A stretch of DNA of 64,000 bases from Selenomonas sp. oral taxon 920 (GTDB lineage Bacteria > Bacillota > Negativicutes > Selenomonadales > Selenomonadaceae), in the NCBI RefSeq assembly GCF_001717585.1, contig NZ_CP017042.1:533501-597500 (forward strand). Reading direction: 5' to 3'. Positions 39,263 through 46,813 of the stretch are shown here, in pieces (position 1 is the first letter of the stretch; each line of letters begins with the position of its first letter). The notes under the pieces were generated by a model. It worked only from the letters and a program-made list of their open reading frames with translations. It made no database searches and was not told the DNA's origin. Position numbers and translations under genes: made by a program.

Positions 39263-41650
39263 ATGAAAACATCGACACTCAGTGAGTTTGATCTGTACCT
39301 CTTTCATCAGGGCACGAACTACCATGCCCAGGAAATGCTCGGAGCGCATTTTGTGGAGCAGGATGGAAAAAAGGGCGTCCGATTTACGGTGTGGGCGCCG
39401 AATGCAAAAGCGGTCAGCGTTGTGGGAGAGTTCAACGATTGGAACGTATTCATCCATCCGATGAGCCGCATTGATGATGGAGAGATCTGGGAGGTCTTTG
39501 TCGAGGGACTCGGCGAGGGCGAGATCTACAAGTACGCGATCGAGCCGCAATGGGGCGGTCCCCGTATTATGAAGGCAGACCCGTACGGGTTCTATGCTGA
39601 GAAGAAGCCTCTGACGGCATCGCGTACCTACGATATGAACCACTACGTGTGGGGCGATGCCGCATGGCAGAAGCGCAAAGAGGAGGAGTCCTCCTACGAG
39701 CGCCCCATGCTCACATATGAGGTACACGCAGGGTCGTGGCGCCGTACGCTCGAGGGGGAGTACCTCTCTTATCGGGAGCTTGCGGACCAGCTGATCAGCT
39801 ATGTAAAGGACATGAACTACACCCACATCGAGTTCATGCCTCTGTGTGAGCACCCCTATGACGGCTCGTGGGGCTATCAGGCGACAGGCTACTTCGCGGT
39901 AACAAGCCGTTACGGCACACCCGACGATTTCCGTTATCTTGTGGATACCGCCCACCAGAACGGCATCGGCATCATCATGGACTGGGTGCCGGGGCACTTC
40001 TGCAAGGACGAGCAGGGGCTTCGTCATTTCGACGGAAAGAACCTCTACGAGTCCGACAACGAAACGCGCGCGGAGAACTGGGAGTGGGGCACCACAAACT
40101 TTGACTACGGGCGCACGGAGGTCCAGAGCTTCCTCATCTCGAACGCGCTGTTCTGGTTCGAGGAGTTCCACATCGACGGCCTGCGCATCGACGCGGTCGC
40201 CAATATGCTCTACCTCAATTACGGGCGCAAGGACGGCGAGTGGCAGCCGAACAAATACGGCGACACGGGCAACCTCGAAGCGATGGATTTCCTGAAGAAG
40301 CTCAACGAGACGATCTTCAAGTATCACCCGCACGCACTGATGATCGCAGAGGAGTCGACCTCGTGGCCGCTCATCTCAAAGCCCGTCTATATGGGCGGCA
40401 TGGGGTTCAACTACAAGTGGAACATGGGCTGGATGAACGACATGCTTTCCTATGTGAGCCTTGACCCGATCTACCGCAAGTGGAATCAGGACAAGATCAC
40501 GTTCTCCCTCATGTATGCGTTTTCCGAGAACTTTGTGCTCCCGCTGTCGCACGACGAGGTGGTGCATGGCAAGTGCTCCCTCATCAGCAAGATGCCGGGC
40601 GACTACTGGCAGAAATTTGCGGGGCTGCGCGGATTCTTCGGCTACTGGATGGCGCATCCGGGCAAGAAGCTGCTTTTCATGGGCGGTGAGTTCGGACATT
40701 TCATTGAGTGGAACTTTGACGACAGCATGGACTGGCACCTTGTCGAGCAGTACCCGATGCACACGAAGATGCTCGCGTACTCGAAGGCGCTCAACAAGTT
40801 CTACGTCGACAACAAGGCGCTCTGGCAGGTCGACTTTGACTGGAACGGCTTCCAGTGGATCGACTGCAACGACAGCGAGAACAGCATCATTGCGCTCGTC
40901 CGCCGCGCTGAGGATCGGAGTGACTTCATTATCTGCGTGCACAACTTCACGCCTGAGGTGCGTCACGGCTACCGCATCGGCGTGCCGACGAAGGGGACCT
41001 ATGTCGAGGTGTTTAATTCCGACGAGGAGGCATACGGCGGCAGCGGTGTGCTGAACACAGGTGATATCGTGAGCGAGGACTATGCGTTCCACGGACGCGA
41101 GCAGTCCATCGTCATCACGGTGCCGCCGCTCGCCTCGACGTTCTACCGCCTGAAGCGGCAGAGCGGCGCGGGTACCCCCGTCAGTGAGGTCTCCGAGCCG
41201 GTTGATGCCGTTGCAAAAAAAAAATCAGTAACGTCTAAGTCGACCGCCGCCGCTGCAAAGAAGCAGGAAGCAGCGACCGAGACTCCGAAGAAGGCTGCAC
41301 CAAAGAAGCGCACGACAGAGGCAAAACCAGCCGCGAAGAAGACGAGGCGGACAAGCACCGCGAAAAAGGCGGATACGGCGTCCGCAAAGACGGCGGCCCC
41401 CAAGAAAACTGCAGCAAAGAGCACGGCCGAGAAACCGGCAGCGAAGGCGAAGACCTCGAGAACGTCTGCGAAATCCACGGCAAAAGCATCCGCGTCCGTG
41501 ACTTCAAAGGCAGCAAAGCCAACTGCTGCAGCGACTGATGCGAAGGCGGCGAAGTCCGCCGCGATGACGGCGACGAAGAAGAAGCCCGCCCGCAAGAGCA
41601 CTGCGGATGCGGAGGAACAACCAAAGAAAACGCGTGCGGCAAAGTCATAG
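39263..41650 (+). CDS. glgB: 1,4-alpha-glucan branching enzyme with histone-H1-like tail
   Basis: Introduces alpha-1,6 branches in glycogen (GH13). Order: N-terminal CBM48-type module (~25-115; VWAPNAKAVSVVGEFNDW), catalytic barrel (~130-540) with nucleophile in HIDGLRIDAVANM near 310, acid/base in MIAEEST near 358, and LPLSHDEVVHGK near 428, then a C-terminal beta domain to ~640. After that comes an unusual ~146-residue tail of Lys, Ala, Thr and Pro (AAKKTRRTSTAKKA, KTAAPKKTAAKSTAEK), like histone H1 or AlgP. An A10 run (41215-41224) sits at the border. Normal GlgB is ~620-730 residues; this is 795. ATG 39263 follows GGAGGGG. Confidence 0.95.
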   Translation: MKTSTLSEFDLYLFHQGTNYHAQEMLGAHFVEQDGKKGVRFTVWAPNAKAVSVVGEFNDWNVFIHPMSRIDDGEIWEVFVEGLGEGEIYKYAIEPQWGGPRIMKADPYGFYAEKKPLTASRTYDMNHYVWGDAAWQKRKEEESSYERPMLTYEVHAGSWRRTLEGEYLSYRELADQLISYVKDMNYTHIEFMPLCEHPYDGSWGYQATGYFAVTSRYGTPDDFRYLVDTAHQNGIGIIMDWVPGHFCKDEQGLRHFDGKNLYESDNETRAENWEWGTTNFDYGRTEVQSFLISNALFWFEEFHIDGLRIDAVANMLYLNYGRKDGEWQPNKYGDTGNLEAMDFLKKLNETIFKYHPHALMIAEESTSWPLISKPVYMGGMGFNYKWNMGWMNDMLSYVSLDPIYRKWNQDKITFSLMYAFSENFVLPLSHDEVVHGKCSLISKMPGDYWQKFAGLRGFFGYWMAHPGKKLLFMGGEFGHFIEWNFDDSMDWHLVEQYPMHTKMLAYSKALNKFYVDNKALWQVDFDWNGFQWIDCNDSENSIIALVRRAEDRSDFIICVHNFTPEVRHGYRIGVPTKGTYVEVFNSDEEAYGGSGVLNTGDIVSEDYAFHGREQSIVITVPPLASTFYRLKRQSGAGTPVSEVSEPVDAVAKKKSVTSKSTAAAAKKQEAATETPKKAAPKKRTTEAKPAAKKTRRTSTAKKADTASAKTAAPKKTAAKSTAEKPAAKAKTSRTSAKSTAKASASVTSKAAKPTAAATDAKAAKSAAMTATKKKPARKSTADAEEQPKKTRAAKS
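41215..41224 (+). other. A10 homopolymer at the body/tail junction of glgB
   Basis: Ten A bases encode Ala-Lys-Lys-Lys together with the preceding GC. One A fewer brings TAA at 41229-41231 into frame; one more brings TAA at 41236-41238 into frame. Polymerase slippage or mutation either way would yield a tail-less branching enzyme. Confidence 0.7.
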
Positions 41651-41759
41651 GCTGCCCGCGCGCATTGATAGGAGAATGACGAAGGCAGCGAGTACAGGAT
41701 GAACAGCTCGTGTCGCAGATGATTACGGCATCGCTCACGAGGAAAAGGAGGATATTGGG

Positions 41760-43205
41760 ATGAAGGTACTATATGTAGCATCGGAGGCAGTTCCATTTGT
41801 AAAGACCGGCGGTCTTGCGGATGTGGCAGGCTCTCTGCCCGCGGCACTCGTCAAGGATGGCGTGGACTGCCGCGTCATTCTGCCGAAGTACGGGGCGATT
41901 GCCGATGAGATCCGCAGCGCGATGGACCATATCTATGACGGAGTTCTGAATGTCGCATGGCGGGATAAGTTCGTCGGCATTGACAGGTATGTGCTCGATG
42001 GCGTGACCTACTACTTTGTGGATAATGAGGAGTATTTCAATCGCGAGGGATTCTACGGGTACCCGGACGATGCCGAGCGCTTCTCGTTCTTCAGCCGCGC
42101 CGTCCTCAATCTCCTGCCGGCGCTTGATTTCTGGCCGGACATCATCCACGCGAACGATTGGCATTCCGCACTCGTCCCCGTGTTCCTAAAACTGGAGCAT
42201 ATGGATGATCCGCGCTATGCAGGGATCAAGACGCTGTTTACGATTCACAATCTGAAATATCAGGGGGTCTTCCCCAAGGATGTCATGACGGATGTGCTCG
42301 GGCTTGACTGGCAGTATTTCAACAACGGCGATTTCGAGTTCTTCGATGCAGTCAACTTTATGAAGGCCGGCATCATCTATGCCGACTACGTATCGACCGT
42401 CAGCAAGACCTATGCCGAGGAGATTCAGTACGACTACTACGGTGAGCATCTGGAGGGGCTTCTGCGCAAGCGCCGCGAGGAGCTCTTCGGCATTGTCAAC
42501 GGCATCGACTATGATGTCTACAACCCCGAGACGGACAAGAATCTCTATGTCAACTACGACATTAAGAAGGCGGTCGAGGGCAAGAGCGACAACAAGGTAC
42601 GCCTGCAGCACGATCTCGGACTCCCTGAGAACCGACGCACGCCGATGGTAGCGATGATTACACGCCTTGTCGCCAACAAAGGGCTCGATCTCGTGGTGCG
42701 TGTCCTGGATGAGATCCTTCAGCACGAGAACGTCCAGTTTGTTCTGCTCGGTACGGGTGACCGCGGCTATGAGGACTGGTTCAAGGAACTCGCATGGCGC
42801 TATCCGAACAAGGTGTCGATCAACATCCGCTTCTCGAACGAACTGGCACAGCGGATCTATGCAGCATCGGATATCTTCCTCATGCCGTCCATGTTCGAGC
42901 CGTGCGGCCTCGGACAGCTCATCGCCATGCGCTACGGGACGATTCCCGTTGTGCGCGAGACGGGCGGGCTGAAGGACACAGTTGTGCAGTTCGACCGTTC
43001 GGATGTGGACAAGGGCAACGGCTTCCTGTTCTACGAATACAACGCACATGAGATGATGTATGCTCTGAAGCGTGCGCTTGCTGCCTACGGCAATCTGCGT
43101 GAGTGGCGTCAGCTCGTATTCACGGCAATGCACAGTGATTTCAGTTGGAAACGCTCGGCGAAGGAATATGAAACCCTCTATGAGCGCCTCCTGCTTGAGA
43201 GCTGA
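41760..43205 (+). CDS. glgA: Glycogen synthase (ADP-glucose type)
   Basis: GT5 glucosyltransferase extending alpha-1,4-glucan from ADP-glucose. The 481-residue product has the N-terminal ADP-glucose site KTGGLADVAGSLP (~17-29), HANDWHSALVP near 130, and the C-terminal retaining-GT motif PSMFEPCGLGQLIAMRYG (~378-395) with the catalytic Glu region. ATG 41760 is preceded by AAAGGAGGATATT. It lies 109 bases after glgB. With GlgC, GlgD and GlgB it completes the synthesis pathway. Confidence 0.96.
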   Translation: MKVLYVASEAVPFVKTGGLADVAGSLPAALVKDGVDCRVILPKYGAIADEIRSAMDHIYDGVLNVAWRDKFVGIDRYVLDGVTYYFVDNEEYFNREGFYGYPDDAERFSFFSRAVLNLLPALDFWPDIIHANDWHSALVPVFLKLEHMDDPRYAGIKTLFTIHNLKYQGVFPKDVMTDVLGLDWQYFNNGDFEFFDAVNFMKAGIIYADYVSTVSKTYAEEIQYDYYGEHLEGLLRKRREELFGIVNGIDYDVYNPETDKNLYVNYDIKKAVEGKSDNKVRLQHDLGLPENRRTPMVAMITRLVANKGLDLVVRVLDEILQHENVQFVLLGTGDRGYEDWFKELAWRYPNKVSINIRFSNELAQRIYAASDIFLMPSMFEPCGLGQLIAMRYGTIPVVRETGGLKDTVVQFDRSDVDKGNGFLFYEYNAHEMMYALKRALAAYGNLREWRQLVFTAMHSDFSWKRSAKEYETLYERLLLES

Positions 43206-43363: not shown

Positions 43364-46300
43364 ATGCTGGAATCGTATCAGGTGGAGCACAACTCACAGG
43401 ACATCTATTTCCGCTCCATTGTCGGGGCAGCCGAAGCGGGGAGCCGGCTGCGTCTCGGCATCCGCATTCGGACATTCGAGCCGATTCATCAAGTGCTCGT
43501 GCGCCTGTGGCAGGACAAGGCGGGGGAGCGTCTGGTTGCGCTCGAGACGAAGGAAGGGCAGGGGGAGCAGAAATTCTATACGGCGTGGATTGATCTGCCG
43601 GATTACGGCTGCCTCGTCTGGTACTACTTCATCATCACAGCGGAGAGCGGTACCTATTTCTATGGGAACAATCCGGAGATGCTTGGCGGTGTCGGTACAC
43701 TCAGCACAGAGGCCCCCGCGTCTTATCAGATCACGATATACAACAAGGGTGCACGCACGCCGGACTGGTTTAAGAACTCTGTCATGTATCAGATCTTTCC
43801 CGACCGCTTTGCGCGTTCGGGAGATACGATTGTGAAGAAGAAGGGCGCTGTCATTCGTACGGATTGGACGGATGACCCCATGTATCTCAAAGATCCTGAC
43901 ACAAAGGAGATCATCGCCTATGATTTCTTCGGCGGAAACCTGCGCGGGGTCATGGAGAAGCTGGACTATCTGAAGAAGCTCGGTATCTCCTGCATCTACT
44001 TCAACCCCGTCTTTGAGTCTGAGAGCAACCACCACTACGACACGGGAGACTACCACAAGATCGACCCCGTGCTCGGCGATATTGAGGACTTTCGCGCCCT
44101 TGTCACGGCAGCCGAGGAGCGCGGCATCCGTATCATCCTCGACGGCGTATTCAGCCACACGGGCAGCAACAGTATCTATTTCAACCGCCAGCATCAGTAC
44201 AGCTCGCTCGGCGCCTATCAGTCGAAGGAATCGCCGTACTACTCGTGGTACCATTTCCGCAGCTACCCGAATGAGTACGACTGCTGGTGGAACTTCGACA
44301 CGCTGCCGAACGTCAACGAGACGGACCCCGACTACATGGACTTTGTCATCACAGGCAAGGACAGTGTGCTTCATCACTGGATGAACGAGGGCATTGCGGG
44401 CTGGCGGCTCGATGTGATCGACGAACTCCCGCCGACGTTCTCCAAGACGTTTTTCGCAGAGCTGAAGAAGCGCAACCCTGATGCCGTCATGATCGGCGAG
44501 GTTTGGGAAGATGCCTCGAACAAGGTCGCCTATGGGACGCCGCGTGAATACCTCTCGGGCAACGAGATGGACTCGGCGATGAACTATCCGCTGCGCACGA
44601 TGATGCTCGACTTTCTCACGGGTGCGATCGACGGACGTCAGACGGCGCGGCGGCTTGCGAGTCAGATCGAGAACTACCCGAAGGAAAATCTCTATGCGAT
44701 GATGAACCTTATCGGCAGTCATGACGTGCAGCGTGCCATCACTGTACTCGCCGGCGTACCCTACTATGAGGGAATGCCGGCAATCGAGCAGTCACGCGTC
44801 CGCATGACGGACGAGCAGTTTGACCTCGGGTCTCGGCGCCTTCTCATGGCAACGCTCTGGCAGATGACCTATCCCGGCGTGCCGAGTGTCTACTACGGCG
44901 ACGAGATCGGGATGCAGGGGTTCAAGGATCCGTTCAACCGCCGTCCCTACGATTGGGAGCACGGCAACAAGGACATTCGCAGCTGGTTCGAGCGCTTTAT
45001 CGCCATTCGTAATGAAAATGATGCTCTGCGCACAGGCGATATCCTGCCGCTCTACGGTGCGGGCGATGTCATTGCCTATGCGCGCACCATCCGTTCGGGC
45101 TACGATGTGTTCAACCAGGAGAAGGAAGACGGTGTCTTTATTGCCGCATTCAACCGCAATCTCACGGAGACACTGACCATCGAGGTGGATGTGAGTGACT
45201 TCGCCTGCGGCGTGTTCGAGGACGCATTCAAGCCCTCGCGCACCTATGAGGTGGAGCGCGGACACCTGCGGATCAAGATTCCGCCGCTCTTCGGTCTCCT
45301 CCTGCGTCAGCGTAAGGAGCCGCAGCGCTGGGAACGCAAGGCGGGTGTCCTCCTGCATCCAACTTCTCTGCCGTCGAAATACGGTGTGGGTGACTTTGGC
45401 GAGGAGGCATATCGCTTTCTCGACTTCCTCGCAGAGGCGGGGCAGAAGATCTGGCAGATCCTGCCGCTCAGCCCCGTCGGCTATGGCTACTCGCCTTATC
45501 AGTCCATCTCCGCCTTTGCGGGCAACATCATGCTCATCGACCTCGACGAGCTTGCCGCGCGCGGATGGCTGACGGAGAAGGATCTCTTTCTGCCGTACGA
45601 GGCGAACACGGCGTTCATCGACTTTGAGCGCGTCAAGCAGTTCAAGAAGGATATGCTCGAAAAGGCGTTCCGGGCATTCCGTAAGACGAGTGCACAGGAT
45701 AAGGCCTTCCAAGATTTCTGTAAGAGGGAAGCGTACTGGCTCGACGACTATGCACTTTTCCACGCGGGGAAGAAGGCGTATGAGCGCGCACCGTGGACGG
45801 AATGGCCGGAGGAGATTCGCCGCCGCGACCCTGCCGCACTCAAAGAGCTTGCCGAGCGGCAGCGCGATGAGGTCGAACTCGACCGCTTCAAGCAGTACGT
45901 CTTTCATCTGCAATGGAATCGCCTGCATGACTATGCGAAGAAAAAGGGGATCGAAATTCTCGGCGATATGCCGATCTTCATCGCACAGGACAGTGCAGAC
46001 GCATGGGCAAACCAGCAGCTCTTCGATCTCAATGAGGATGGTACGCCGCGCACGGTGGCGGGCGTACCGCCTGACTACTTTGCCGCCAATGGGCAACTCT
46101 GGGGCAATCCGCAGTACAATTGGGACGCGATGAAGGCGGAGAACTACGCATGGTGGAAGCGGCGCTTCCGAAAACTGCGTGAGCAGGTGGACATCATCCG
46201 CATCGACCACTTCCGCGCTTTTGAGTCCTATTGGTCGGTGGACGGCAAGGCGGAGACCGCAATCAACGGACACTGGATCAAGGGGCCCGGCAAGCCCTTC

Positions 46301-46813
46301 TTCGATGAGATCGAGCGGGAACTCGGTGAGATGAATATCGTCGCTGAGGATCTCGGCATCATTACGAGCGAGGTTGAGCGCCTGCGCGATGACTGCGGCT
46401 TCCCCGGCATGAAGATCGTCCACTTCATGCTCGAACCGAATGAGTCGGGGCGCGTCGGTTTCGTCACGCCAGAGAACAGCATCGTCTATACGGGGACGCA
46501 CGACAACAACACGACCGTCGGCTGGTTCACACACGACATTGACGAGGTGCTGCGCGAGACCCTTGCAAACCTCATGGGGACGACCTCCGACCGTCCTAAG
46601 ACCATCTGTAAGCGCCTCATCAAGGCGGCGTATGCCTCGCGTGCACGCATGGCGATCATCCCCATGCAGGATTTCCTCGGACTCGACGAGCGCGCCCGCA
46701 TGAATACGCCCGGTACCGTCGGCATCAACTGGCGGTGGAGCCTCAAGAAGGACTACCTCCTAGAGCTCGACTCAAAGAAACTGAAGGCTCTCTGCGTGCG
46801 GTACCGTCGGTGA
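43364..46813 (+). CDS. Fused alpha-amylase/neopullulanase (GH13) and 4-alpha-glucanotransferase (GH77)
   Basis: A 1149-residue bifunctional glucan enzyme. Residues ~1-135 form a beta-sandwich CBM34-like module. Residues ~140-650 are a GH13 barrel: FPDRFARSGD, YDTGDYHKIDP, nucleophile in GWRLDVIDELPP near 350, acid/base in MIGEVWEDA near 380, LIGSHDVQR near 454, then a beta domain. From ~657 (RKAGVLLHPTSLPS) a complete MalQ-type GH77 follows: LPLSPVGYGYSPYQSISAFAG, nucleophile IRIDHFRAFESYW near 947, acid/base IVAEDLGIIT near 993, and TGTHDNNT near 1045. No stop or frameshift separates the parts. The signal peptide is missing, so it is cytoplasmic and should trim and rearrange glycogen-derived dextrins. 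ATG 43364 follows AAGGGAGAGGGTG. Confidence 0.9.
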   Translation: MLESYQVEHNSQDIYFRSIVGAAEAGSRLRLGIRIRTFEPIHQVLVRLWQDKAGERLVALETKEGQGEQKFYTAWIDLPDYGCLVWYYFIITAESGTYFYGNNPEMLGGVGTLSTEAPASYQITIYNKGARTPDWFKNSVMYQIFPDRFARSGDTIVKKKGAVIRTDWTDDPMYLKDPDTKEIIAYDFFGGNLRGVMEKLDYLKKLGISCIYFNPVFESESNHHYDTGDYHKIDPVLGDIEDFRALVTAAEERGIRIILDGVFSHTGSNSIYFNRQHQYSSLGAYQSKESPYYSWYHFRSYPNEYDCWWNFDTLPNVNETDPDYMDFVITGKDSVLHHWMNEGIAGWRLDVIDELPPTFSKTFFAELKKRNPDAVMIGEVWEDASNKVAYGTPREYLSGNEMDSAMNYPLRTMMLDFLTGAIDGRQTARRLASQIENYPKENLYAMMNLIGSHDVQRAITVLAGVPYYEGMPAIEQSRVRMTDEQFDLGSRRLLMATLWQMTYPGVPSVYYGDEIGMQGFKDPFNRRPYDWEHGNKDIRSWFERFIAIRNENDALRTGDILPLYGAGDVIAYARTIRSGYDVFNQEKEDGVFIAAFNRNLTETLTIEVDVSDFACGVFEDAFKPSRTYEVERGHLRIKIPPLFGLLLRQRKEPQRWERKAGVLLHPTSLPSKYGVGDFGEEAYRFLDFLAEAGQKIWQILPLSPVGYGYSPYQSISAFAGNIMLIDLDELAARGWLTEKDLFLPYEANTAFIDFERVKQFKKDMLEKAFRAFRKTSAQDKAFQDFCKREAYWLDDYALFHAGKKAYERAPWTEWPEEIRRRDPAALKELAERQRDEVELDRFKQYVFHLQWNRLHDYAKKKGIEILGDMPIFIAQDSADAWANQQLFDLNEDGTPRTVAGVPPDYFAANGQLWGNPQYNWDAMKAENYAWWKRRFRKLREQVDIIRIDHFRAFESYWSVDGKAETAINGHWIKGPGKPFFDEIERELGEMNIVAEDLGIITSEVERLRDDCGFPGMKIVHFMLEPNESGRVGFVTPENSIVYTGTHDNNTTVGWFTHDIDEVLRETLANLMGTTSDRPKTICKRLIKAAYASRARMAIIPMQDFLGLDERARMNTPGTVGINWRWSLKKDYLLELDSKKLKALCVRYRR

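Follow-up and report, generated by a model that had tools for sequence, protein, structure and literature searches.

A conserved A10 run with stop codons in both shifted frames of glgB in oral Selenomonas species: a candidate slippage site for tailed and tail-less branching enzyme

Introduction

The closest described counterpart of the site reported here is dnaX of Thermus thermophilus, in which a run of nine A residues is followed by near stop codons in both other frames; the long form is read in the zero frame and transcriptional slippage makes about half of the product short, as described in parts of PMC5009743 and PMC1088944. Slippage also gives truncated products from Shigella spa33 and mxiA, according to a passage in PMC5009743. 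Shorter second products can arise at the level of the ribosome as well: E. coli dnaX uses −1 ribosomal frameshifting at an A-rich heptamer, and ribosomes are described in part of PMC4363877 as sliding along iterated AAA codons and terminating at out-of-frame stops. Baranov et al. 2005 point out, in a passage of PMC1088944, that truncating slippage is hard to spot by comparative means, as no extensive new coding sequence follows the site.

A second set of relevant systems concerns storage polymers. PhaF, PhaM and AlgP have histone-H1-like domains that bind DNA and are believed to tether PHA and polyphosphate granules to the nucleoid, as set out in parts of PMC13052382 and PMC9239181.

Here we describe an A10 run in glgB of Selenomonas sp. 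oral taxon 920, within a 64-kb stretch of its chromosome (the window), and compare it with orthologs from a genus set of 14 genomes (oral Selenomonas-type organisms and Centipeda, source genome included, one genome per species) and from other genera of the family.

Results

glgB encodes a branching enzyme with a basic C-terminal tail

The gene order in the window is glgP, glgB, glgA and a GH13-GH77 fusion gene. The last of these is a single ORF at 43364-46813 (1149 aa), in which a GH13 alpha-amylase-type domain is fused to a GH77 4-alpha-glucanotransferase. The features discussed below are as follows.

39263..41650, + strand: glgB, glycogen branching enzyme with a C-terminal Lys/Ala-rich tail, 795 aa in the zero frame (NCBIfam and Pfam matches)
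39263..41161, + strand: complete enzyme portion, residues 1-633 (end of the NCBIfam GlgB match; GlgB structure alignments)
41162..41212, + strand: linker, residues 634-650, SGAGTPVSEVSEPVDAV (SGAGTP present in 14/14 genus orthologs)
41213..41647, + strand: Lys/Ala-rich tail, 145 aa (by composition), lost on any loss of frame at the A10 run
41215..41224, + strand: slippage-prone A10 run, GCA AAA AAA AAA (exact A10 in 8/14 genus orthologs)
41229..41231, + strand: TAA in the frame entered on loss of one A (+1 frame), predicted product ...AKKNQ, 655 aa
41236..41238, + strand: TAA in the frame entered on gain of one A or on a −1 ribosomal shift, predicted product ...AKKKISNV, 658 aa
41760..43205, + strand: glgA, 3′ of glgB, listed for context since polarity could affect its expression

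The glgB product scores above the cut-offs (in brackets) of three NCBIfam models, NF003811 with 924 bits (741), NF008967 with 914 (577) and TIGR01515 with 881 (464), and contains the Pfam domains CBM_48, Alpha-amylase and Alpha-amylase_C. By these matches it is a GH13 glycogen branching enzyme, GlgB, of standard build up to about residue 633. The three NCBIfam matches end at residues 626-633 and solved GlgB structures align up to residues 625-644.

The tail that follows is 28% K+R and 30% A, with a pI of 10.8 and a charge of about +32. Region 41156-41647 gave no Pfam match at E ≤ 1, and a search of the tail against the proteins of its own genome at E ≤ 0.01 returned the tail itself and no other tailed protein. 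A tailed GlgB is encoded in all 14 genus genomes; although the tail is variable, inspection by eye finds an MTAxKK block and a PKK near the C-terminus in every one of them (L001-L014).

An A10 run lies at the start of the tail, followed by stops in both other frames

In the zero frame the run reads GCA AAA AAA AAA TCA (A-K-K-K-S) and codes for residues 651-654; about 20 residues of linker separate these from the enzyme portion, and the Lys/Ala-rich tail begins with them. With one A lost, the sequence becomes GCA AAA AAA AAT CAG TAA; with one A gained, it continues ...ATC AGT AAC GTC TAA. The initial annotation had placed these two stops correctly, and its further claim that slippage in either direction would give a complete enzyme without the tail is borne out by frame reading. 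It had also set the run exactly where the catalytic part ends, which is not the case: the enzyme portion ends about 20 residues earlier.

This is the only run of at least nine A in the 64 kb on either strand. Dinucleotide shuffles contain a mean of 0.13 A9 matches, and 3 of 100 equal the two found in the window, both of which lie within the one A10; judged within the window alone, the rarity of the run is modest. The 2.44-Mb source genome holds two A10 places. Near stops in both frames also occur at other A runs: among 20 A9 sites inspected in two relatives, in one within an ORF (L256, genome G005) the stops lie 0 and 4 bases past the run, and in another (L250) 20 and 15 bases past it, in a doubtful 101-codon frame on the other strand. 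Since such a layout can arise by chance in one genome, the weight of the argument rests on conservation.

Like Thermus dnaX, as far as that system is described in the sources cited, glgB has a sense-strand homopolymer of at least nine A late in the coding sequence, a zero frame that gives the long product, and stops close by in the two other frames. It differs in belonging to another gene and pathway, in having ten A residues, in that a basic low-complexity tail would be removed, and in being known from sequence comparison. The Shigella cases are alike by their description, in that slippage (proposed in glgB) gives a shorter second product, but spa33 and mxiA are secretion apparatus genes. In dnaX of the organism itself, A runs stay below six, and there is one T6.

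The run and both stops are conserved in eight species

Exact A10 is present in eight genus orthologs (L001-L007, L009), while the other six have A9 (L008), A8 (L011), A7 (L010) or no such run (L012-L014). In every one of the eight A10 carriers each shifted frame is closed by a stop, at two distances that do not vary: the +1-frame stop is TAA or TGA, the −1-frame stop always TAA. The codons that contribute to these stops differ between carriers (GTA, GTG or ATG before the A; TCT or CCT before AAR), and so do residues near the run (V/M, T/I, S/P). The A9 relative (L008/L157) reads AAA AAA AAG and has kept the near stop of the −1 frame but lost that of the +1 frame. In the five genus members that have neither A9 nor A10, no gene has both stops within 8 codons. 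The GCA codon before the Lys codons is kept in all nine A10/A9 species, and pure AAA in eight of them. A pattern for the run plus both stops matched 8 of 189 family genomes, always at these glgB genes; it was written from the carrier genes themselves and covers the unread family genomes for the exact layout only.

The initial annotation had taken the position and the stops to suggest selection, which this distribution supports. It had also named codon-broken Lys runs in relatives as evidence against a functional run; these do occur in the five members with neither A10 nor A9 and, to a mild degree, in the one with A9, but not in the eight carriers.

Retention of the run goes against codon preference

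The carriers are separated by substantial background synonymous divergence: the identity of fourfold third bases between them is 0.59-0.83, mostly about 0.62, against an equilibrium expectation of 0.37. AAA is a minority codon, making up 12-22% of the Lys codons in their glgP, glgB and glgA genes, and apart from the run there are 113 columns with Lys in every one of the eight, of which 3 are all-AAA, 59 all-AAG and 51 mixed. The column that forms the −1-frame stop has a third-base T in all nine A10/A9 species, which holds for none of the other 115 TCN/CCN columns that these species share. Outside the tail, none of 1974 positions is followed within 8 codons by conserved stops in both frames; counted per species, such stops follow 6 of 1102 other tail positions in the eight carriers, versus 8 of 8 at the site.

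The site had been picked for its look in one species, and we corrected for this by asking how often features that the window's species happens to have are retained by every carrier at other places in glgP, glgB and glgA. The rates are 3/19 for AAA, 5/38 for GCA, 5/71 for a −1-frame stop and 40/65 for a +1-frame stop; on the last count, the +1-frame stop taken alone is weak evidence. The product of the retention rates for three AAA codons and two stops is about 2 in 10,000, assuming independence. What counts against selection is a plain sliding window of synonymous identity, in which the best window over the site ranks 155 of 2069, on a score that favours preferred codons and is blind to rare ones. 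The branch that separates the nine A10/A9 species from the remaining five has a support of just 74, and as the carriers are all found in a single part of the tree, they may share one origin. Taken together, the run and its stops are kept against codon preference, as expected of a slippery site under purifying selection, and selection on the run plus both stops is well supported by these comparisons.

Slippage of RNA polymerase would release the enzyme without its tail

The reading that we favour, and hold to be somewhat probable, is that loss of frame at the A10 run is programmed, as at the Thermus dnaX site, and that slippage of RNA polymerase on the run yields both tailed and tail-less GlgB. 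RNA polymerase would slip on the ten A residues, so that part of the glgB mRNA carries a number of A residues other than ten plus a multiple of three. Ribosomes on slipped mRNA would terminate a few codons past the run in either frame, freeing a complete branching enzyme of 655 or 658 aa without the basic tail, while unslipped mRNA would give the 795-aa tailed form. One gene would thereby supply both forms, and the length of the run would set their ratio. A stop near the run would also leave about 400 bases of glgB without translation before glgA, and it is possible that glgA expression would drop.

Nascent-RNA hairpins at such a place can stimulate polymerase slippage, according to part of PMC5009743. 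Upstream of the run (41192-41214 and orthologs), the same small hairpin, with a stem of 4-6 pairs and a loop of 4, is predicted in five of the eight A10 carriers (L164, L151-L154), ending 2-4 bases before the A residues. The nine-species consensus fold of the run and the 60 bases before it has a z of −2.47, with 2 of 200 column shuffles as low. Against synonymous codon sampling, however, the hairpin is ordinary: 153 of 2000 samples are as stable and 96 of 394 other windows as extreme. Its stability stays within what synonymous sequences reach, and we treat it as a lead only.

The five genus members without A9 or A10 that nevertheless have the tail count against the proposed mechanism, for they indicate that the short form is not generally needed.

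The ribosome is a less likely source of the same two products

The two products could instead be made by the ribosome, through a −1 frameshift on A_AAA_AAA or by sliding on poly(A), with termination at the near stops; we consider this possible but unlikely. The run does contain in-frame A_AAA_AAA heptamers, so that glgB resembles E. coli dnaX in having an A-rich heptamer and a truncated second product, which in glgB is a proposed one. The −1-frame stop is the better kept of the two, and the A9 relative, which retains it together with A_AAA_AAG and has no near +1-frame stop, could use the ribosome. In four of the nine species an SD-like GGTGG lies some 16 bases 5′ of where the GCA codon ends. 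The other five have no SD-like word at that place, only different SD-like words elsewhere, and in this glgB differs from E. coli dnaX, as any one SD-like element is common to at most four of the nine. Nor is there a shared hairpin downstream of the run: the nine-species consensus reaches −0.76 kcal/mol, with 14-15 of 200 column shuffles as low, and single-species folds, although they reach a z of −3.1 in one case, vary between species. A two-sequence consensus fold was uninformative as evidence for a frameshift stimulator. The classical combination of an upstream SD-like element and a downstream stem-loop was thus not found across the nine species, and we rejected it.

The composition of the run also sets it apart from E. 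coli dnaX. It is a pure homopolymer, AAA rather than AAA AAG, in eight of the nine species; the +1-frame stop is kept in eight of nine as well, giving stops in both frames; and the GCA codon, kept in all nine, supplies a tenth A for which a heptamer has no need. Since pure AAA and GCA are kept while the stimulators are not common to the nine, slippage of the polymerase is favoured over a classical −1 shift.

A tolerated run, phase variation and a DNA element are less probable still

The run might be tolerated and unused, with AAA as the ancestral coding of KKK and both stops serving as a safety net against costly misframed tails, which we regard as rather improbable. It would accommodate a tail present in 14 of 14 species with A10 or A9 in only nine, the chance occurrence of near dual stops at another A9 (L256), and the smoothed synonymous conservation at the site, which is not extreme. 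It sits poorly with the fact that a synonymous change to AAG, the preferred Lys codon, would end the hazard, yet three AAA codons are kept in eight species, and with the scarcity of such runs: carrier genomes hold just 1 to 4 A10 places each, and in four of the eight the glgB run is the only one of the assembly.

Phase variation at the DNA level, in which changes in A10 length during replication would turn the tail on or off between cells, seems very unlikely. Runs of this kind are probably hypermutable by replication slippage too (part of PMC1088944). All eight assembled A10 alleles, one genome per species, are in frame for the tail, whereas lengths of 9 or 11 would be expected among them if switching were free; these in-frame counts are weakened in that selection in culture could mask out-of-frame alleles.

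We give almost no credence to the block being kept for its DNA sequence, for instance as an internal promoter, so that the frame would be irrelevant: to the eye TTGC-A-run-TCTAAG looks like a spaced hexamer pair, but we rejected an internal promoter at the run on a sigma-70 consensus scan of 41100-41800 that returned no promoter-like site and on a TTG that is not conserved (TAGCAA and TGGCAA in two of nine species), and stops in two frames would be left unexplained.

Tails and A runs in other genera of the family

A GlgB match was found in 134 family genomes of other genera. The 3′ ends of 96 of these genes were taken (two end at contig ends), of which 87 were parsed and 9 were not; one row within the 87 (L108) is perhaps misparsed, and its tail was read separately. 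Lys/Ala-rich GlgB tails are widespread in the family: 58 of the 87 parsed genes encode one that is 40 residues or longer and has a K+R content of 15% or more. None of the 87 has A10 in the tail, and six have A8 or longer.

One gene of another genus (L203, genome G132) has KKK encoded by A9 at the corresponding place (IAKKKAITK), and stops lie 4 bases past the run in the +1 frame and 17 bases past it in the −1 frame; seven other glgB genes of that genus have AAG AAA AAG or just two Lys codons there. L203 is a possible place to seek a second origin of the slippage site, though one species proves nothing. Two genes of one further genus (L221 in G115 and L239 in G118) have a short GlgB tail that ends just past an A9 (...ESKKN and ...DAKKKE), and slippage in one direction would lengthen their ORFs by about 300 or 140 bases. 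In one relative, a run of 36 A, a C and a run of 14 A (L123, G003:C14:191095-191144) lie outside any ORF of more than 90 codons, possibly as an assembly or mobile-element feature.

Discussion

The A10 run of glgB and the stops in both shifted frames form a real conserved element. On the comparisons made here it is most likely a slippage site making tailed and tail-less GlgB, a dnaX-type case in an unexpected gene. We infer the slippage, its occurrence at the RNA rather than the ribosome level, the two proteins and a role for the tail. The initial annotation had called the run a slippage switch; conservation of the run and the dual stops supports the site, but 'switch' is too strong a word, as a fixed ratio of the two forms fits equally with regulation.

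The literature search, which covered few subscription papers, found no account of a glycogen branching enzyme with transcriptional slippage or of transcriptional slippage in Selenomonas, and no title on Lys-rich or C-terminal tails of branching enzyme among the matches listed. In the covered portion of a 2024 review of prokaryotic alpha-glucan enzymes, the words 'frameshift' and 'histone' are absent, and 12 of its 13 passages on C-terminal extension, lysine or isoform are silent on such a tail.

As for what the tail does, it resembles the C-terminal domains of PhaF and AlgP, as these are described in parts of PMC9239181 and PMC13052382, in being a long, basic, Lys/Ala-rich domain of about 150 aa on a storage-polymer protein, a likeness of composition only. 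It differs from them in sitting on a glycogen enzyme, in having no KPAA repeat array and in that its presence would be under the control of a candidate slippage site. By analogy, a polyanion, for instance DNA or polyphosphate, may serve as the anchor to which tailed GlgB ties glycogen synthesis. A further and tentative proposal, to which we attach low confidence, is that polymerase slippage determines how much GlgB is anchored to the nucleoid or to polyphosphate relative to the free enzyme; the system would then be a glycogen counterpart of PhaF/AlgP, in which the length of an A run, not a second gene, does the tuning.

Joint conservation of a run and of stops in both frames offers a comparative signal for truncating slippage. 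If the proposal is true, glgB would be a case of dnaX-like slippage within central metabolism, and the role of a histone-like tail on a glycogen enzyme would become a testable question.
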